DNA from: Marnyiella aurantia
GTDB lineage: Bacteria > Bacteroidota > Bacteroidia > Flavobacteriales > Weeksellaceae
Direction of reading: 5' to 3'
Assembly: GCF_014041915.1 (NCBI RefSeq)
Contig: NZ_CP059472.1
Coordinates: 992,001-1,056,000 of the forward strand
DNA length: 64,000 nt
Shown here in pieces: positions 6,365 through 19,989 of the stretch (the first letter of the stretch is position 1; every line of letters starts with the position of its first letter). The position numbers were made by a program, and so were the translations under genes. The notes beneath the pieces are model-generated. The model saw only the letters and a program-made list of their open reading frames with translations. It was not told where the DNA came from and ran no database searches.

Positions 6365-6949
6365 ATGATACAGATTGACGATAAATTAATTTCTGAGGAA
6401 ATATTTTCCGAAGAATTTGTTTGCAACTTAACCAAATGTAAGGGTGCCTGCTGCGTAGAAGGCGATGTGGGCGCACCACTGGATAAGGAGGAGACCAAAA
6501 TCCTTGAAGATATTTTTGATAAGGTAAAACCTTACCTGCGCCCCGAAGGTGTAAAAGCACTGGAAGAACAGGGAACCTGGACCATAGATCCGCATGACGG
6601 TGATTATGTAACTCCTATGGTAAACGGTGCCGAATGTGCCTATGTGATCTTTGACGACAGAGGAATTACCAAGTGCGGAATCGAGAAGGCGTATGAGGAC
6701 GGTGCTGTAGTTTGGCAAAAACCGATTTCCTGCCATCTCTACCCGATCCGTGTAACCGAATACTCCACTTTTACGGCGCTGAACTATCACGAATGGCCAA
6801 TTTGCAGTGATGCCTGTGTTTTGGGCAAAGAATTGCAGGTACCTGTTTACAAATTCCTGAAAACACCGTTAATCCGTAAGTATGGTGAAAACTTCTACCT
6901 TACACTTTCGGAAGCTGCGGAAGAATGGAAGAAGGAATTCAGCAGCTGA
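6365..6949 (+). CDS. DUF3109 family protein (Cys-rich)
   Basis: This 194-residue protein has conserved cysteines in CNLTKCKGACCVEG near residue 20, a single Cys in KCGIEKA, CHLYPIR near residue 124 and ICSDACVLG near residue 145. This Cys spacing resembles the YkgJ/Fe-S or zinc-binding type clusters, and the family is DUF3109. It is probably a metal-cofactor protein, but the reaction is unknown. It lies 11 bases after a membrane-protein gene and 22 bases before mgtC. Confidence 0.82.
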   Translation: MIQIDDKLISEEIFSEEFVCNLTKCKGACCVEGDVGAPLDKEETKILEDIFDKVKPYLRPEGVKALEEQGTWTIDPHDGDYVTPMVNGAECAYVIFDDRGITKCGIEKAYEDGAVVWQKPISCHLYPIRVTEYSTFTALNYHEWPICSDACVLGKELQVPVYKFLKTPLIRKYGENFYLTLSEAAEEWKKEFSS

Positions 6950-6971
6950 AGAATTAACTAAATAAGATTTG

Positions 6972-7616
6972 ATGTCTGAACATTTTGAACTCCTTGATGT
7001 ATATAAAGCACTGTTCTCGGTAGCCGCAGGACTGATTTTGGGCTTCGAGCGGGAGATGAAAGACAAGTCTGCAGGACTGAAGACCATTACGGTGATTTGC
7101 CTTGGTTCCACCCTTTTTTCCATCCTTTCCTACAAACTTTCCGGCGTTGGCGACCCAACCAGGATTGCCTCCTACATTGTAAGCGGTATAGGCTTTCTGG
7201 GCGCCGGCGTTATCTTCAAGGAAGGTTTTAATGTGTATGGCCTTACAACAGCCGGTGTAATCTGGATTGCCGCTGCCGTGGGAATGTCTATTGGTTTTGG
7301 TGAAATTTATATGGCTTTCACATTTCTGTTAGCAGCGATGATTGTGATCAACACCGCAAAATATTTCACCAGCAGTTTGATGCCGCAGCATCACAGCAAA
7401 ATTCTGAAACTTAAGATATCCTCAGAAAATTTTTCAGGCAAGTCTGGAATTGTAAGCGAGATTGCAAATATAGCTCGGGAAGCCAACGAAATAGGCCTGG
7501 AAAAAGAAGGGGAAAGCCTGACACTGACACTGGAAATATTTATCTCGGCTAAGGAACTGGGCAGGCTTGAAGACTATCTTGTTAAGAACAGGGATTTGCA
7601 GTATTTCAGTTTCTAA
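6972..7616 (+). CDS. MgtC/SapB family membrane protein
   Basis: This 214-residue protein starts with amphipathic and hydrophobic segments carrying the MgtC/SapB signatures GLILGFEREMKDKSAGLKT and GIGFLGAGVIFKEG, with five or so membrane spans in the first 135 residues. A soluble ACT-like tail follows. The family is linked to magnesium homeostasis and intracellular survival. I choose the ATG at 6972 over the adjacent TTG. The last 122 coding bases plus the terminator are repeated about 5 kb downstream at the far side of an island. Confidence 0.88.
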   Translation: MSEHFELLDVYKALFSVAAGLILGFEREMKDKSAGLKTITVICLGSTLFSILSYKLSGVGDPTRIASYIVSGIGFLGAGVIFKEGFNVYGLTTAGVIWIAAAVGMSIGFGEIYMAFTFLLAAMIVINTAKYFTSSLMPQHHSKILKLKISSENFSGKSGIVSEIANIAREANEIGLEKEGESLTLTLEIFISAKELGRLEDYLVKNRDLQYFSF

Positions 7617-7706
7617 GATAATTGGAAACAGCTGTTTCAAAAACAAAATCCGTCCGGCAGTAAACTGCCGGACGGATTTTTTAAAATAAGCTTTATAGTA
7701 TATTAT
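7495..7706 (+). repeat. Direct repeat copy A: mgtC 3' end, terminator and tig-side spacer
   Basis: This 212-base segment is repeated at 12554-12765. By eye the 122 coding bases are identical and seven mismatches all fall after the mgtC stop. The intervals from the stop to the ATATTAT that ends the repeat are equal in both copies (84 bases). In this copy the sequence is interrupted right after ATATTAT by an IS element. Beyond the IS, the tig-side sequence resumes at 8937. Confidence 0.9.
7645..7682. terminator. Intrinsic terminator after mgtC
   Basis: A perfect 16-bp stem (7645-7660 with 7665-7680) and a 4-base loop (TAAA) are followed by a T tract. The same hairpin is present in the second copy before tig. 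It is symmetrical enough to act on both strands. Confidence 0.88.
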
Positions 7707-7754
7707 AAAATACCTCGACATCACTAGACCACTTTTGATCATTTCTTAGTTGAA

Positions 7755-8578
7755 TCAGGCTGCCGTTTTATACATACTAGCTGGCTTTTTTCTATCAATT
7801 CCCTGATGGGCTTTGTAATGATATTTTTCAATCCATTTTTTAATACCAATAAAAAGGTCAATGCCGGATTCTGCAGGATTTAAATAGATGTGCTGATACT
7901 TATAGTTCGCCAAAATCGTTCGATATAAATGTTGTCCAGCGCGCGTCCTTTGCCATCCATACTTATTTGGATATGCTGGTCTTTGAGATACTCAACGTAC
8001 TCTCTGCAGGTAAATTGGCTGCCCTGATCACTGTTCAGGATCGATGGTTTACCGTGGTCCCGGATCGCATCTTTTACTACCCTTAGAGAGGAATCGGCAT
8101 CGAGCGAGTTACTCAGTCCCCAGCCAACGATATAGCGGCTGTAAACATCGATAATTGCTGTTAGATACATAAATCCCTTTGCCATGGGAATGTAAGTAAT
8201 GTCAATCTCCCAAACCTGATTTTTCTCCGTTATAGCGAGATTCCGAAGCAAATAGGGGTAAATATATTCGTTCTTTTTCCATTGCGTTAAATGCCTGCGG
8301 GGATAGATTGGTTTGATGCTAGCCAATCTCATCAGCCGTCTTACACGCTCATAACCAATGTGGATTCCCCTGTCCTCCAGCATGGATTGCATGGTCAGGA
8401 CTCCGGCAGTGGGTTCTTCCAGGATATGCTTGTCCATGATCTCCATGATTTCCAGATTCACCTGCGGTTCGCCTTTGGGCTCATAGTAAAATCCGGAACG
8501 GTTTATTTCTAGAACCTCACATTGTTTACGGATACTCAGAGCATGTTTGCGGTCAATTAAAAGCTTGGAATCAATCAT
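7755..8578 (-). pseudogene. IS3-family transposase OrfB, frameshifted near its 3' end
   Basis: The frame encodes an HTH_21-type N-terminus and an rve integrase core. DDE residues lie in WEIDITYIP, LNSDQGSQF and IYIERFWRT. The frame then ends early in SISTSI. Reading one base later from about 7900 restores a normal IS3 C-terminus (YQHIYLNPAESGIDL through AHQGIDRKKPA) that stops at 7755. The simplest cause is loss of one A where ATAAAG would be expected. The intact protein would be about 275 residues, the usual OrfB size. The start overlaps the orfA stop (ATGA). Confidence 0.85.
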
Positions 8579-8868
8579 AGACCTAACCTGGATAAACTTT
8601 TTTTTAAAAAGTCTTTCTCCATCTGTAATTCCCCTATCTTGGAATACAGCTTATCCACATCCACATCGTTACCAGAGGTCGATGATTTGGTTTTCTGCTC
8701 AAATACAAGCGAGGAGTTCTCCAAAAACTCCTGCTTCCATTGCGAGATCTGATTGGGATGCAAATCAAACTTAACGGCCAGTTCTGAGAGTGTTTGCCGC
8801 TCTTTCAGTGCCTCAACGGCAACTTGTGCCTTGAAAGAGGAATCGAATTTTCTTCTGCTTCTTTTCAT
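8575..8868 (-). CDS. IS3-family transposase OrfA
   Basis: This 97-residue protein has the start chosen at MKRSRRKF, because the upstream in-frame residues are low-complexity and lie close to the IS end. It has an HTH_Tnp_1 domain (SSFKAQVAVEALKE, DLHPNQISQWKQEF) and a C-terminal leucine-zipper-like segment (LYSKIGELQMEKDFLKKSL). It overlaps orfB by 4 bases. In this family OrfA and OrfB normally cooperate, and the fused OrfAB made by frameshifting is the active transposase. Confidence 0.88.
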   Translation of the reverse strand: MKRSRRKFDSSFKAQVAVEALKERQTLSELAVKFDLHPNQISQWKQEFLENSSLVFEQKTKSSTSGNDVDVDKLYSKIGELQMEKDFLKKSLSRLGL

Positions 8869-8936
8869 AATTTTCACTTGATTAAAATTAAACTTTTTTT
8901 TCAATTAGTCAAGTGGTCCAAATTTGCGGGGGTATT

Positions 8937-9062
8937 ATATTATCCCTGCTTCACCAATTCCATAAGTGGTCGTGCGAAATCACCGTTTGGATTTTGTTGT
9001 TTCTCAAAGATATCAATACAAACTGTAATTTTTCTACCCGATAAAAGTATTGAGTTTTTCAT
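8937..9062 (-). pseudogene. Diverged remnant of a trigger-factor 3' end
   Basis: Minus-strand bases 9062-8940 read as a 40-codon frame with its own ATG that ends MELVKQG. The intact tig protein ends MEMVKQG. The last 30 bases nearly match the intact tig end at 12759-12790, and weaker alignable similarity continues for about 60 bases (IFEK... against ILEK...). I read this as the truncated, diverged 3' end of a second tig-like gene, left at the island edge when the junction was duplicated. Expression as a real small protein is possible but not supported. Confidence 0.6.
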
Positions 9063-9147
9063 GAATGCCGGATTTTAAAGACATTGGCATTTATAAAGAG
9101 ACGTCGCGCATTAAATATCCGCGACACGAAAGCATTTAAATTTAACG

Positions 9148-10137
9148 TTATCTTTTAATAATTCTTGAGGAGGTATTTCCTGAATCTGTTTCCACAACAA
9201 CATTATAAATTCCTTTTGCGACTCCGGACATAGAAATTCTGTCTGTTTTTTTAGTATTGATAATCATCCTTCCTGACATGTCAAAAACGGTAACTGATTT
9301 AATTTTACTACCAGATCTTGGTTTTATATTAAAGCTATCATCTACAATAGTAGGAAAAATTTCTGCCGCCGTGGAAGTGTTTGTTTCATTTGTTGAAAGG
9401 GCGGATGGCGCAAATCTGTAAACAGTACCGCTTGCAGGTGCAGAGGTAACATATACTTCGTAATTTGGCGTGTAAGCAAATGTTGGACTGCTCCCATTGC
9501 CGCTTAATGCATAAGCACTTCCTATAATTTCCCCTGTATTAAAGTCGAATTGGGGATATAAACCGCAGCCAAAACCAGGATCGCCGTCAAAACTTTGCGC
9601 GGGGTTGGAAATATTGCTTGCTCCAAAACGATATTCAATAATATTGGAACCTTCGTATAGCCAAAGCTGTATATTGATAAAATCGGAAGAAACATTATCG
9701 CTGATAATTTCATTATAAAAGCCCATGTTGCTCCATTCAAGTTTAAAAATTCTGCTTCCTACATTTCCTTCCGTTTTGTAGGAAATATTTGATTGTGAAG
9801 TTCCGCTTACGAATCCTCTGTCGGCAGTATCAGCAATTATTGGGGCGAAAATGAAACCGGTATTGGGATTTGGCTGATTTGAAAAGACAACGGTCGGGAC
9901 AAAATTTGTATCAAAGTGCAACGCGTTGGTATTCAGGTTACCATTTGCTACGAAGTTGAAACCAATATTTGCTGTTGCGCTAATTCCTGACCACGAAGTC
10001 CAAACTGTACCGTTTGTAACCGAAGTTGAAGCCGTCAGTGCAACATAAGGTGATGAAAGCAGACTGAAATTGTAGATTTGTGCGTGCATGAACGGCATCA
10101 GCATTACTACAAACAGAGATTGTAAAATTTTTTTCAT
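9148..10137 (-). CDS. Secreted protein with T9SS type A sorting domain
   Basis: This 329-residue protein has an N-terminal signal peptide (MKKILQSLFVVMLMPFMHAQ). The middle is rich in Asn, Ser, Thr and aromatic residues, typical of secreted beta-sandwich proteins. The last 70 residues look like a T9SS type A C-terminal domain (IFPTIVDDSFNIK, VFDMSGRM, GIYNVVVETDSG, then a basic end). It should cross the outer membrane by type IX secretion. The plug protein of that system is also in this window at 44.3 kb. The molecular role is unknown. The gene is AT-rich and lies inside the island. Confidence 0.82.
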   Translation of the reverse strand: MKKILQSLFVVMLMPFMHAQIYNFSLLSSPYVALTASTSVTNGTVWTSWSGISATANIGFNFVANGNLNTNALHFDTNFVPTVVFSNQPNPNTGFIFAPIIADTADRGFVSGTSQSNISYKTEGNVGSRIFKLEWSNMGFYNEIISDNVSSDFINIQLWLYEGSNIIEYRFGASNISNPAQSFDGDPGFGCGLYPQFDFNTGEIIGSAYALSGNGSSPTFAYTPNYEVYVTSAPASGTVYRFAPSALSTNETNTSTAAEIFPTIVDDSFNIKPRSGSKIKSVTVFDMSGRMIINTKKTDRISMSGVAKGIYNVVVETDSGNTSSRIIKR

Positions 10138-10193
10138 ATTATATTTTTTTATAGATTGATAGTGTGAAAATAAAAATTTTTTTTGAAGAATTT

Positions 10194-10216
10194 ACCTCAC
10201 GCTTTAAACGTGAGGT
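10194..10216 (+). terminator. Hairpin between the T9SS cargo and lipoprotein genes
   Basis: ACCTCACG and CGTGAGGT form an 8-bp stem with a 7-base loop. A T tract follows on the plus strand, whereas both flanking genes are on the minus strand, so its role as terminator of the lipoprotein gene is uncertain. Confidence 0.4.
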
Positions 10217-10232
10217 TTTTAAAAAATATTAA

Positions 10233-10691
10233 TTAATAACAGTTTCCACCACAACTTATCGCATTCTGATAGTCTTCCGGAGTTATGATATATGTTACTT
10301 TTAGCTCATTGTTATATATAGGATTATAAATATTCCTAGGCTGGTTAAAGCATTGATTTGATTCTGTACAATCTTGATAAATAACTCTTTTGGAATTATC
10401 AAAAACAACTTCTACATGAGTCAATATACCAGACGTAGGAGTTACAAAAAAACTTGACATTAACAAGCCGTCATTGTAAGGGGGATCAACTTCTTTTTTT
10501 AAAGCAATACTTCCATCCTGCACAATTGAAATTTTTGAGTTATAATTAACTTGACCGTTAAAATAGGGTATTAGGTCAATTTTAGAGTTGGACTTGTTTT
10601 TTATAGAATATTCATAATATTTTGTATCTCCCTGATCTGTTCTACATTGACTCAGCAGCAATATGAAACTTAATAATATAAGTGATTTCAT
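10233..10691 (-). CDS. Hypothetical lipoprotein
   Basis: This 152-residue protein has a lipoprotein signal peptide (MKSLILLSFILLLSQC, lipobox LSQC) and no domain I recognise. Two Cys-containing segments (DCTESNQCF and SCGGNCY at the very end) may form disulfides. It starts 5 bases after the stop of the HExxH lipoprotein gene and is probably cotranscribed with it, so it may be a partner. The sequence is AT-rich compared with the housekeeping genes outside the island. Confidence 0.65.
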   Translation of the reverse strand: MKSLILLSFILLLSQCRTDQGDTKYYEYSIKNKSNSKIDLIPYFNGQVNYNSKISIVQDGSIALKKEVDPPYNDGLLMSSFFVTPTSGILTHVEVVFDNSKRVIYQDCTESNQCFNQPRNIYNPIYNNELKVTYIITPEDYQNAISCGGNCY

Positions 10692-10696
10692 AATAT

Positions 10697-12426
10697 TTAA
10701 TCTTGCCAGTTAGCGAATAATTCGTCAATAAAAGGTCTTGTAGGTTTATTAGGGTACATTGCTTTAACTTTATCCCTGTAGTCATTCCAATACCTTGCTC
10801 CTGACAGAGCATTTTCCAACTCTTTTATAGTATATCCTTTAACTTGATCAATGGGATATTCGGATCCGTAAATTCTTCTTTGATCTATCTCATCCGTCAT
10901 GTCATATATTCCTGATGTATACAAGTTTTCTTCTGAAATTTTTCTTTTCTGATAGTTAATTATTTGATAATTAGAGTAAACGCTGTAATTAGTAATATTA
11001 TACCTTACTTTATACCTTTCTAATGTCATCAAGATTTCCACTGCAGTTGGCCAACTCTCCAATAATCTACGATTCCTTTTTCTCACCTGTGTGTTTCCAG
11101 ATAAAAAAGAGTCTTGTACGATATCGTTATAAGATGATCTATCTTTTACAGAATGCAAAGCATGGCTTAATTCATGAATTGTAGTACCATATACTTGATC
11201 AGATGGTTTTCCATAATCTTTTATATGAACTTGAGCTGATAGTCCAAATGTAATTTCACTTCTTAAATGTGAATAAGAAGAAGTCGGACCAGAGTTGGAT
11301 AATCTACCTGCAATTTTTATCTGGGTCTGTTTTCCAAAATTATAAAAATGATTATTTATTGGAGGTGATATAAGAGCAAATCTATTTCCATAGTAGAAGT
11401 CATGCGCTGCTTGGTGAATTAATGAATGATATTCGTCCTTACCACCACTTATAGTCGTATGCCAGGATTGTTGCTTTACATTCGGCCCGTGTGTTTCTGC
11501 CTGAAAAAAAGATCCATCACGTACACTGTAATTATGTCTTTCCCACTGAATAACATACCGTGCTTTTCCGCGTACGTCCCCTGTGGAAAAATTTCCGTTG
11601 CCGTCAGTAATCCCTTGTCTTACCGTAAACCACTGCCGCATGAGGACCTGTGCACCTGTTACCGGTTTTACTCCTGCCACATCGTCGTTTACTTTTATAT
11701 TCCCGCTGGGGTACCACTTTGTTGCAAATATAGAAAACAGTCCTCTTGCATTGGGTTCAGGTTCTGCTAAAAGCTCTTCCTCGTTTCCGGTTTGGGCAAA
11801 AGCATTGTAGAGCAAATGGTAAAACAAATCGGTGGTGTTATCTACCACATTCGTAATGGGATAACTTTCCATATTTTCCACCGCATCAAAATAGGCATCC
11901 TGCTCGGGGATATAAAGATGACTCAGCACCTCATAATCTACGTTGGGCAAGGCTTTACCTATAGGAACAGCGGTATAATACACCGAAATGGAGTCGGCAT
12001 CAGGAACCCTGTTTTCCAGAAAGCCTTCGGCATATTCGCAATCCATACGGTAATCGAAATAATGAATGGTCGAATCCTGCTTCAACAAGCCTACCTCTTC
12101 CTCCGTGTTAGGTTTAAATTTCAGGTAGCGGTGCGTTTCCTGTATGGCAAAATCGCGGATAGGGAAATCTGGGTTCTCATCTTTTATTTTCTGTAAGGCA
12201 TCTTCCATATTCGTCACCGAATACGGGTTTTGTAAAATCAGAGAGTCGCCGGAAAATGTACGGGCAGTCATGGAAGAAGTAAAGTTTTCCTCGTTTTTAG
12301 CTCTGGGTTCAAAAATTCGTCCTTACAAGAATTAACCAGCAAACTCGTGGCGGCTAAAAATAGAGAACAAACTGCCGTTAGAAGGGAACTGCACACTGCC
12401 TGTTTGTTTGTTTTTTTGTTTATCAT
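10697..12426 (-). pseudogene. HExxH metallopeptidase-like lipoprotein, frameshifted after the signal peptide
   Basis: The long frame (12271 to 10697, 524 residues) has no signal peptide. Upstream, from the ATG at 12426, another frame encodes one (MINKKTNKQ..., lipobox LVNSC) and then continues KDEFLNP. Adding one T to the T5 run at 12311-12315 (A5 on the plus strand) joins the two frames smoothly. Counting from the start of the long frame, it has a transthyretin/carboxypeptidase-regulatory-like segment around residues 195-245, HELSH at 366-370 and a candidate third zinc ligand Glu in LLESW at 405, a gluzincin-like layout. Function is unknown. Either the gene is broken or the base is a sequencing error. 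Confidence 0.7.
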
Positions 12427-12553
12427 TATATTATGTTTTATAACACTAAGCTATTTATTAAAAGCAAACAAAAACTTAAACAAATGTTAAAGTTTTGTTA
12501 AGAATTTACCATTCAAATTGACATCAAAACCTAGCGAGAGACCAACCAATTGA
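12427..12553. other. AT-rich upstream region of the HExxH lipoprotein gene
   Basis: This stretch lies between the lipoprotein start and repeat copy B. It is AT-rich and may hold the promoter for the minus-strand island genes, but I see no clear TAnnTTTG element. It holds no gene. The unique sequence ends abruptly at 12553/12554, where the mgtC-derived repeat begins. Confidence 0.5.
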
Positions 12554-12765
12554 GCCTGGAAAAAGAAGGGGAAAGCCTGACACTGACACTGGAAATATTT
12601 ATCTCGGCTAAGGAACTGGGCAGGCTTGAAGACTATCTTGTTAAGAACAGGGATTTGCAGTATTTCAGTTTCTAAGATAATTATAAACAGCTGTTTTTAA
12701 AATAAAATCCGTCCGGCAGTAAACTGCCGGACGGATTTTTTAAAATAAGCTTTGTAGGATATTAT
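12554..12765 (+). repeat. Direct repeat copy B: truncated mgtC 3' end plus terminator
   Basis: This segment contains the last 122 bases of mgtC with its stop (12673-12675), no start and no upstream gene, then the same spacer and terminator. It runs directly into the stop of the intact tig gene. This is probably the ancestral mgtC-tig junction, with the main part of mgtC now about 5 kb away. The coding part is identical to copy A by eye, which argues for a recent duplication or gene conversion. Confidence 0.9.
12704..12741. terminator. Terminator of tig (duplicate of the mgtC terminator)
   Basis: The same 16-bp stem and TAAA loop occur as at 7645-7680. In this position it lies just beyond the tig stop on the minus strand and would serve tig. 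Confidence 0.82.
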
Positions 12766-14099
12766 CCCTGCTTCACCATTTCCATAAACTCATCATGAGA
12801 AATTGGCGTTTCAGTCTTAGTCGCTTTTTCAAGGATCACATCTTTCAGTTTTGCCATTGCAACTTCTGAAGAAATCTGACGTACCTGCTCCTGGTCTTTC
12901 AGCATTTCTACAGCATATTTCTGTACCTCCTCGTCCGGAAGGTGGTGAATTCCGTAAATCGCCAACTGGTTTCTAACCAACTGTTCAGCCTGAGCCAATA
13001 CATCTTCGTAATCAAGCTTGATCTCGTTGTCATTCATCAGTTTACCTTCAATGATCTGGTGCTTGATGGCAGCTCTTTCATTTTCCAGTACTCCTTTGGC
13101 CTGTTCTTCAGTTTTGATGTTCTCGTTGCTGAATACCAACCACTTTGTAAGGAAAGTTTCAGGTAGCTGAACTTCTTCTTTCTCTGTGATCTGCTCCAGT
13201 ATGTTGTTTACGAAATGAATATCCGCGTTCTGCTGGAAATATTCATCAAGTTCAGACTTTACTTTCTCCTTAAGTTCTTCTTCAGACTTGATGTTTCCTT
13301 CACCGTACACTTTATCAAAAAGTTCCTGGTTCAGTTCGTGATTGTTCAGTCCGTAGAAATCTTTCACTTTCACCTCTACCTCATCGTGGTGCAAATGCTC
13401 AATTTCTGCTTTGCTGAAGCCCAACTGCTTGGCCAGTTCTTCCTTTTCAGTAAGGTCCGCTTTAGAAACCTTTACAGAACCGTCCATTTTCAGGGACTTC
13501 ACCAGGTCAAATGCCTCCTTGCTTTCAGCATTGATGGTAACATTCTTTGGCGGGTGGTTGTGTGCACCTTCAGCATCTTCTTCAACTACCTGAGTGATTT
13601 CAAGTGCGATAAAGCTGTCATCAGTGATGTCATCCTGCGGAACCTGCTCGGCGAAACGCTTCTGCATGTTTTCGATGGACTTTGTAATTTCTTTGTCTGA
13701 AGCCTCTACTTTGTAGTGTGCTGCTTCATATTTGGAAAGGTCAATGGTCATTTCCGGCTCATAACCCACTTCAAAGGCAACTGAAAGCTGTTCAGCAGTG
13801 TGGTCAAAATCGTTTACCGGAAGCGGTACCGGCTGGCCCACCATTTTTAAATTATTTTCGTTGATGTAATTGTTCAGACTGTCGTTAACCAACTTATTGA
13901 TCTCTTCAAAGGCGATAGGAGCTTCATACTGTCTCTTCACCAGGCTCATAGGCACTTTACCTTTTCTGAAACCGGGTACCTGCGCATTTTTCGCGTAATT
14001 GTGAAGTTGTTTTTCTACCTTGTCTTTATAATCTGCTCTGTCTACCGTTACGGTAAGTAAAGCACTAACCTCATCGTGGTTTTTTGCTGTTACATTCAT
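12762..14099 (-). CDS. tig: Trigger factor (ribosome-associated chaperone, peptidyl-prolyl isomerase)
   Basis: This 445-residue protein has the N-terminal ribosome-binding domain with the signature region VPGFRKGKVPMSLVKRQY near residues 38-55, where GFRKGK is the ribosome-contact loop. A diverged middle PPIase domain and a long helical C-terminal chaperone domain follow. The length is normal for Flavobacteriia. It binds nascent chains at the ribosome exit tunnel. A good -7 element lies upstream. Its 3' neighbour was probably mgtC before the island arrived. Confidence 0.93.
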   Translation of the reverse strand: MNVTAKNHDEVSALLTVTVDRADYKDKVEKQLHNYAKNAQVPGFRKGKVPMSLVKRQYEAPIAFEEINKLVNDSLNNYINENNLKMVGQPVPLPVNDFDHTAEQLSVAFEVGYEPEMTIDLSKYEAAHYKVEASDKEITKSIENMQKRFAEQVPQDDITDDSFIALEITQVVEEDAEGAHNHPPKNVTINAESKEAFDLVKSLKMDGSVKVSKADLTEKEELAKQLGFSKAEIEHLHHDEVEVKVKDFYGLNNHELNQELFDKVYGEGNIKSEEELKEKVKSELDEYFQQNADIHFVNNILEQITEKEEVQLPETFLTKWLVFSNENIKTEEQAKGVLENERAAIKHQIIEGKLMNDNEIKLDYEDVLAQAEQLVRNQLAIYGIHHLPDEEVQKYAVEMLKDQEQVRQISSEVAMAKLKDVILEKATKTETPISHDEFMEMVKQG

Positions 14100-14124
14100 T
14101 GTTATATCGAAATTTTTAGAGTTG

Positions 14125-14132
14125 CAAAAGTA
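14125..14132 (-). promoter_or_regulatory. -7 promoter element of tig
   Basis: TACTTTTG on the minus strand fits TAnnTTTG, 25 bases before the tig ATG. Confidence 0.5.
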
Positions 14133-14184
14133 TGAATTTTATTTGATAAAGATTTGGCATATCCATGCTAAAATCTGCTAAAAA

Positions 14185-14730
14185 TCAGTCGGTAATGGAA
14201 AAAACAGCCACCGCGTCCGTTTCGCCACCGGTTACACTTCCCCATGCGGTACCCATCTGATCCTCTGAAACATCAGCGGCATCATGGATCAGGGCCAGAT
14301 TCAGTTTTGGAGTGCTGCCCGTTACAGTGTTGTTAACCTGCCATCTGCTCTTCACGCCAAGACGTTTGCCGTCTGTCCTCAAATCATCATCCAACCTTGT
14401 AAGTGTGATATCTGTATCGGTAAAACCAAAAATCAGAAAATGCTCATCCCTTTCGTCTATAATTTCATCAGTGATATCCTCCGCACCGTTCCGGAAGGCC
14501 ACAGAAACCAAATAGCTTCTGCCATCCTGCAGTAAGATCGCAGGCTGGAAGGCAGAGTTCGCGATATAAGTGTAAGTACTGGAAGCCCCGCTAAGCTCGT
14601 CCACCACAGTAAGTTCAATGGCCGAGATCTCCTCCTGCGTAAAGACGTCTTCATTCTCATCAGCCCGGCTGCACGACTGTAAAAACAAAAGTAAAACAAC
14701 AGGTAAAATATATTTGAGTAAAATTTTCAT
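14185..14730 (-). CDS. Hypothetical lipoprotein paired with a TonB receptor
   Basis: This 181-residue protein starts at MKILLKYILPVVLLLFLQSC, a lipoprotein signal with lipobox LQSC, followed by an acidic stretch. The rest is predicted beta-rich (repeated short hydrophobic strands, EHFLIFGFTDTDITLTRLDD) with no family I can name. It starts 11 bases after the TonB receptor stop and is surely cotranscribed. Surface lipoproteins next to TonB receptors commonly help capture the substrate, so an accessory binding role is plausible (inference). Confidence 0.65.
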   Translation of the reverse strand: MKILLKYILPVVLLLFLQSCSRADENEDVFTQEEISAIELTVVDELSGASSTYTYIANSAFQPAILLQDGRSYLVSVAFRNGAEDITDEIIDERDEHFLIFGFTDTDITLTRLDDDLRTDGKRLGVKSRWQVNNTVTGSTPKLNLALIHDAADVSEDQMGTAWGSVTGGETDAVAVFSITD

Positions 14731-19617: not shown

Positions 19618-19989
19618 CATACCTGTTTATTTTTTAATGTTTATTTGAGTGAGCAATAATGGCCAACTGGGTTTGCCTTTATTACCTGTGTACAAATTTA
19701 GAAGGTTTGTGCAAAGGTCACTTTATAGATTTCACTGTAAAAATTATAAGAATTTCACATCAAAAAAATGCCTGCAGTCCGGTGGCCGCTTTGGCCACCA
19801 TGTGCATTGCTTCGTCATCCGTCGCGACTTTGGCCAGTACGTCCGCCTCGCAAGGACAGCAAAGTCCTGGAAAAGCGCGCCCCGGCACTGTTCGGATTAC
19901 TATTTTACGGGGAAAAAGTAAGGTACAAGTATTTAGTAACGGATCCTGGCAGGCCTGTTACTATATCAGTTTAAATTAAGAGATATTAA
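19618..19989. other. Gene-free stretch with a GC-rich core and hairpins
   Basis: About 370 bases between the hairpin at 19.6 kb and the DUF4230 gene hold no convincing gene. The core, about 19770-19900, is clearly richer in G+C than ordinary spacers here. It contains a perfect 7-bp hairpin (GGTGGCC 19781-19787, GGCCACC 19793-19799) and a smaller one around AGGAC/GTCCT. Overlapping frames on both strands are open but none looks like a known protein. Confidence 0.4.
19760..19888 (-). pseudogene. Possible remnant of a small Cys-containing gene
   Basis: The minus strand reads 42 residues from a GTG, with CCPCEAD followed by an amphipathic, protein-like segment (VATDDEAMHMVAKAATGL), ending in TGA. 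Upstream the frame stays open for 24 more codons but has no ATG. A terminator-like hairpin lies about 140 bases downstream. The composition looks more coding-like than the plus-strand alternatives, but I recognise no family. Weak call. Confidence 0.2.

Follow-up and report, generated by a model that had tools for sequence, protein, structure and literature searches.

The window analysed here, a 64-kb stretch of the chromosome of Marnyiella aurantia, a relative of Chryseobacterium (NZ_CP059472.1, positions 992,001 to 1,056,000), holds the convergent genes mgtC and tig (trigger factor) on either side of an island of about 5 kb whose two borders are copies of the same mgtC/tig junction. Unless stated otherwise, coordinates are positions in this window; the genome itself is a single contig of 2,613,493 bp. 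On the left lies a complete mgtC gene (6972-7616, + strand, 214 amino acids (aa); PF02308 MgtC, 110.9 bits at a cutoff of 31.4), the 3' end of which belongs to repeat copy A. The first part of this copy (7495-7706, +) comprises the mgtC 3' end, the stop codon, a hairpin and spacer DNA. It is followed by an insertion sequence (IS) of the IS3 family (7707-8938, -), by the second part of copy A with the last tig codons (8944-8965), and by a diverged, decayed tig tail and a short further stretch (8966-9022). Three cargo genes, all on the minus strand, occupy 9023-12501. A stretch of 52 bp (12502-12553), which has no match in three congeners and no hit with an mgtC profile, separates the end of the cargo homology from copy B (12554-12787, +), as delimited by the repeat alignment. 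An earlier reading of the bare sequence (hereafter the original prediction) described copy B as a headless mgtC fragment joined to a complete tig, and this is what is found: the fragment starts at 12554 and contains the hairpin and the tig 3' end, and the complete tig gene spans 12762-14099 (-, 445 aa; PF05697, 121.8 bits).

Base-by-base alignment reproduces the predicted direct repeat of 212 bp exactly (7495-7706 versus 12554-12765, offset 5059). The copies differ at seven positions (7624, 7625, 7638, 7639, 7644, 7695, and 7699), all past the mgtC stop as had been claimed, and the predicted identity of the mgtC coding part holds for 129 bp without a difference (7495-7623), including the stop codon that ends at 7616. 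When the IS3-family element is left out, the repeat continues from 8944-8965 into 12766-12787 with 21 of 22 bases equal, so that the two copies are near-identical over 234 bp with 8 mismatches. Counted along the repeat, the differences are 0/129, 7/83, 1/22, and then 31/61 in the decayed tail. A 231-bp repeat query matched two long places in the own genome (231 and 224 bases), the remaining two matches being the hairpin pairing with itself on the opposite strand, and no further repeat was listed in a self-comparison of 94 kb around the repeat (blastn, E 1e-6, at least 40 bp, at least 85%, low-complexity filter on). Because both searches show just these two copies, the junction repeat is not a chance similarity.

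For the tig side of copy A, the original prediction placed a diverged remnant at 8937-9062. Part of this stands: near-identity with the resident gene ends at 8965, a diverged tail is recognisable at 8969-9012, and the cargo begins at 9023. With a profile of 18 tig tails, nhmmer gives the copy A tail 15.3 bits, a score reached by none of 5000 dinucleotide shuffles and by one of 5000 random window segments, which is possibly the window's own tig. Anchored extension is likewise significant (P 0.0006), and the local scores against the 18 tails are matched by 0/400 random segments. The wider interval 8960-9150 has matches in eight genomes of the family besides G000 and G001; in the six that were compared, these involve differing parts of the query and both strands.

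Terminator-like hairpins lie at 7645-7680 in copy A and, in identical form, at 12704-12739 in copy B. Both fold equally well on either strand, at about -29 kcal/mol. A consensus terminator scan of 6900-14200 found 4 terminator-like sites compared with 5.3 in shuffles and lists one of the four hairpin/strand cases, namely copy A on the minus strand; these are therefore putative terminators, a label based on the hairpin and its position between convergent genes. A simple sigma-70 scan found 20 promoters with 20.8 expected and hence no excess. Such a scan is ill-suited to this phylum.

The element at 7707-8938 carries IS3-type OrfA and OrfB transposase proteins (NF033516 IS3 transposase, 193.9 bits at a cutoff of 160; HTH_Tnp_1 and rve above cutoff). 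It interrupts copy A at 7706/7707 and is bordered by an ATTAT direct repeat (7702-7706 and 8939-8943). The end of orfB appears to continue in another frame, and the element is therefore probably inactive. It is found at one place in its own genome and in none of the three congeners; the pair of flanking IS copies that defines a composite transposon is thus not present.

The ancestral state of the locus can be read from relatives. Three congeners were compared (G001, G002, and G003), the first of which is taken as Chryseobacterium sp. SNU WT7, a strain proposed as Chryseobacterium siluri (PMC7036476). The window proteins are 92% (MgtC) and 99% (trigger factor) identical to those of SNU WT7 at the aa level. 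In G001 and G002, mgtC and tig are convergent and adjacent, with a hairpin in the spacer; in G003 an mgtC-like match (53% identity) and tig lie on separate contigs, which makes this genome uninformative. Among GTDB genomes, 20 records contain mgtC, with tig inside the fetched stretch in 16 and outside it in 4. The spacer measures 66-432 bp in 14 of these 16; because L062, among the 14, repeats the G002 contig, a short spacer is counted in 13 of 15 further records. These short spacers support the predicted ancestral order mgtC-terminator-tig, and the check that had been proposed for it, a search for an empty site in close relatives, turns one up in both informative congeners. Given this ancestral adjacency, the insertion is most simply derived in the lineage of the window. 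The flanking genes are thus conserved and adjacent in relatives, and the content between them varies between genomes, being absent in two congeners and a different gene in two further records. In the latter, from Kaistella antarctica and one metagenome-assembled genome, a single large gene, presumably an M16-type peptidase by its HxxEH motif, fills the site without duplicated ends (L075:10829-14251, 1140 aa; L077:10705-14193, 1162 aa). The mgtC-tig site was also considered as an island hotspot; one gene without duplicated ends is not the same thing, and the idea was dropped.

The cargo consists of three genes for proteins that are secreted or predicted to be so. The first in window order encodes a protein of 329 aa with a C-terminal sorting domain of the type IX secretion system (T9SS) (9148-10137, -; PF18962 and TIGR04183 above cutoff), the second a small putative lipoprotein of 152 aa (10233-10691, -; lipoprotein by eye, no family match), and the third a putative lipoprotein with an HExxH motif, zincin-like by that motif (10697-12427, -). 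This last protein has no match in Pfam, NCBIfam or PADLOC and carries HELSH after residue 365. Its reading frame is open for 524 aa from 12271, and the plasmid version described below measures 579 aa. Because the signal-peptide part (up to 12427) lies in a different frame from the rest, the window gene is probably broken, with intact relatives elsewhere.

The best DNA match of the cargo is on a plasmid. The interval 9023-12501 corresponds, in the same order and orientation, to 3.5 kb of the 67-kb SNU WT7 plasmid NZ_CP044508.1, which PLSDB types as mobilizable (MOBB); for the query 8880-12560 the match covers 76% at 87.3% identity, and the homology ends at 12501. At the aa level, the T9SS-sorted protein is 94.5%, the small lipoprotein 43%, and the HExxH lipoprotein 74% identical to the plasmid versions; the small lipoprotein reaches 71% with genome G215. 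At fourfold sites the T9SS gene is 0.90 identical to SNU WT7, as against 0.42-0.80 in ten chromosomal backbone genes, and 74 bp of upstream DNA show 97.3% identity to the plasmid. These two values favour horizontal transfer. Compared in steps of 50 residues, the window HExxH protein resembles the SNU WT7 version at 76-98% as far as residue 300 and at 54-61% beyond it; for the version found on transposons (G291, G129) the figures are 56-78% as far as residue 200 and 77-100% beyond it. As its similarity switches between the two versions along its length, it is a chimera of the plasmid and transposon forms. The small lipoprotein gene, located 3' of the HExxH gene (the two together at window positions 10233-12271), is the most variable of the module, with two tandem copies in G215, and in combination with a chimeric HExxH protein gives a pattern that may be likened to toxin-immunity modules. 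A role in defence was considered and dropped, the three cargo proteins having no PADLOC match, as was a phage origin, since tblastn with the HExxH protein matched none of 50,697 phage records and the IMG/VR contigs yielded no confirmed relative.

In other genomes the module occurs in several settings. Of 296 family genomes, 24 (the window's included) match the HExxH protein at E <=0.001 and nine (again with the window's) at >=66%. Three of those nine, G129, G287, and G291, carry a related module inside a 7.2-kb Tn3-family transposon with inverted ends of 55-58 bp, a Tn3 transposase and a resolvase, the Pfam run having covered the G129 proteins (L050:7617-14831 and L051:7076-14290 in G129; L048:5040-12254 in G287; L049:3049-10265 in G291). 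Its passengers are an HExxH lipoprotein, a small lipoprotein, and a T9SS-sorted protein; the HExxH gene of G287 has an internal stop. The two transposon copies in G129 are identical and 15 kb apart, and their flanks look exchanged between the copies by eye. G135 and G194 each have a solitary HExxH lipoprotein gene between two direct copies of a 53-55 bp stretch with a terminator-like hairpin (L054:7070-7124 and 8970-9022; L055:7824-7875 and 9726-9778).

The data support an ancestral mgtC-spacer-tig arrangement, a foreign insert, and a junction of about 234 bp in direct duplication that leaves the 3' ends of both neighbours and the hairpin complete. As to how this came about, we give an even chance to an integrase-free insertion, in which a mobile accessory module entered the convergent mgtC/tig site by homology-driven recombination. 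The incoming DNA would have carried a short copy of the junction (mgtC end, hairpin, and tig tail) beside the module, and a RecA-type crossover between the resident and the incoming junction would have fallen within the 129 bp of identical mgtC end or close to them. The left side of copy A would thus be resident and its right side, where the spacer differences and the decayed tig tail lie, incoming; copy B would represent the resident junction on its right side, and the IS3-family element would have entered copy A afterwards. A recombination event between the two copies could still excise the island as a loop. In a one-sided version, homology would have acted at the spacer/tig side, and the other end, at 12553/12554, would have been joined illegitimately on the sister chromosome; a one-sided event most simply explains the identical mgtC ends, both of them then being resident, together with the lack of a profile-detected mgtC left of 12554. 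Either version is driven by homology and needs no integrase. A crossover between junctions accounts for the foreign cargo, the 234-bp duplication, and the uneven differences, if the incoming tig tail had already decayed. RecA-type entry at a junction copy is the most likely route, although the route itself is inferred. Consistent with the original prediction, no integrase was found among the cargo and IS proteins scanned, a scan that covered ORFs of at least 80 aa other than overlapping antisense ones.

Several observations weigh against this reading. The small lipoprotein gene and the HExxH gene are less plasmid-like than the T9SS gene, with fourfold-site identities of 0.29 and 0.65. The copy A tail shares 30 of 61 aligned bases with the resident tig and 29/61 with SNU WT7, values within the range of 27 to 34 seen across 17 other loci, and so is no nearer to these two than to other species. 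A donor spacer that is 92% resident-like should not pair with a half-identical tig tail, unless that tail was already decayed. The identity of the mgtC ends can stem from gene conversion and the spacer differences from drift. A profile search detects no diverged mgtC upstream of 12554. There, the frame at 12535-12555 reads RETNQLS versus REANEIG in mgtC, and the anchored extension is weakly significant (P 0.0074, n = 5000; three alternative score sets, with n = 2000 each, give P 0.006 to 0.01). Compared locally with 18 mgtC ends, however, the stretch does not stand out from 400 random segments (mean score, P 0.10; maximum, P 0.74). Finally, no donor with the module beside an mgtC/tig junction was found in the stretches examined: the surroundings of module relatives, taken from 11 places in 10 further genomes (L019 and L048-L057), contain no mgtC or tig match, and neither does the rest of the 67-kb contig of SNU WT7 (L058-L060).

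The main rival is an in-situ duplication with later gene conversion, to which we assign a tentative, minor share of probability. A break or replication event would have doubled the junction and the module would have been end-joined into it, after which the tig tail drifted and gene conversion maintained the mgtC part. The sharp start of the copy B fragment at 12554 with no mgtC-like DNA beyond it by profile agrees with this, as does the fact that strong divergence in copy A is confined to a part without function, the functional halves being conserved; the tail is also as far from the resident tig as from the tails of other species, which fits as well. However, the recent-looking parts of the cargo (the 97.3% over 74 bp and the T9SS gene) leave little time for the tail to decay, although the plasmid could have obtained the module from the lineage of the window rather than the reverse, and the adjacent double differences at 7624-7625 and 7638-7639 look like divergent alleles and not like recent drift. 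The history given in the original prediction, homologous recombination between junctions or tandem duplication, is right in its main line while its mechanism is unproven: the cargo is foreign, a plasmid giving its best DNA match, a tandem duplication alone fails to explain that cargo, and homologous recombination and local duplication are both candidate mechanisms. The asymmetry pointed out there (mgtC identical, spacer differing at 7/83, tig at about half) fits a crossover near the mgtC end and also a later gene conversion.

Entry of the module as a passenger of a Tn3-family or IS3-family element is quite unlikely. The related module does ride the Tn3-family transposon in G129 (two copies), G287, and G291, and an IS3-family element lies near the left border. 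However, a 20-base query from the Tn3 terminal repeat, with as many as 3 mismatches allowed, has no match in the window, no Tn3 transposase is found among the island ORFs, and the IS lies inside copy A, is single in the genome, and has its own ATTAT repeat. Tn3 and IS3 elements duplicate a few bases, not 234 bp. Still less probable is a genomic island that integrated site-specifically at the 3' end of mgtC by way of a long attachment repeat, its integrase since lost or acting in trans. Like many integrative elements, the island does adjoin an intact gene at its 3' end, but the scanned cargo and IS proteins include neither a tyrosine nor a serine integrase, the repeat covers two gene ends and a hairpin, usual attachment cores being shorter than this, and two filled sites in relatives lack duplicated ends. 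An assembly artefact is highly improbable, given the 8 mismatches between the copies, their dissimilar outer flanks, and the single-contig genome.

Returning to homology-driven insertion, the island belongs with a known kind of event, an insertion without an integrase after which the junction of two conserved genes is present twice. The minimal mobile element (Saunders and Snyder, 2002, as quoted in passages of PMC8627216) is a region of variable content between conserved genes with homologous recombination as its sole transfer mechanism. The mgtC-tig site shares the position between two conserved genes, with content that differs between genomes, and the lack of another transfer mechanism, none of the three cargo proteins being encoded by a mobility gene; it differs in that the flanking junction is itself duplicated around the insert and that the content was compared between species. 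A parallel in outcome comes from a study in E. coli (PMC3240628), in which PCR revealed a duplication in 56 of 60 clones and the duplications in 14 sequenced clones, 109-950 bp long, were ascribed to single crossovers of a circular molecule with short homology. The direct target duplication is shared, with 234 bp here; that system, however, is an experimental E. coli plasmid, and the present one a natural insert with unevenly differing copies. In transformation-induced merodiploids of Streptococcus pneumoniae (PMC3784515), duplications likewise arise without active transposases, through donor DNA that pairs across sister chromatids, but these are tandem, lie between repeats already in place, and measure about 100 to 900 kb. 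Natural competence is reported in Riemerella, a relative. The Tn3-family transposon shares the order HExxH lipoprotein, small lipoprotein, T9SS-sorted protein; in contrast, the window copy lacks the Tn3 transposase, the resolvase and the terminal repeats, and its third gene encodes another protein that has the sorting domain in common only (31% over 83 aa). Literature searches retrieved no paper joining mgtC, trigger factor, Chryseobacterium and insertion, and nothing related on integrase-less islands with trigger factor.

The locus offers a natural example of a module entering between convergent genes without an integrase and with neither gene broken, as both gene ends and the hairpin they share lie within the duplicated stretch. 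With a complete end and a hairpin left to mgtC as well as to tig, the insertion should, to judge from this anatomy, be nearly neutral for the neighbours. It also documents a three-gene secreted-protein module that has versions on a mobilizable plasmid, on Tn3-family transposons and on chromosomes of the Chryseobacterium group, with internal recombination. A bolder reading would make the island a homology-addressed mobile unit, with its own junction copy as address, exit as a circle by recombination between copies A and B, and integrase-free entry into the same junction of relatives, the neighbours and hairpin being restored each time; we regard this as unlikely.

The wider comparison with SNU WT7 shows fourfold-site identities of 0.80 (tig), 0.75 (TonB-type receptor), and 0.62 (ABC protein) to the right of the island and of 0.42-0.62 for seven genes to its left. 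Import of the right flank from an SNU WT7-like donor was considered and rejected, as 500-bp bins over 94 kb vary equally elsewhere. At window position 19806, SNU WT7 holds about 4.5 kb that the window does not (G001 C1, about 2082282-2086803, in L098 and L099). This extra DNA encodes two related large proteins, T9SS-sorted by eye, and contains internal repeats (60 bp at 98%).

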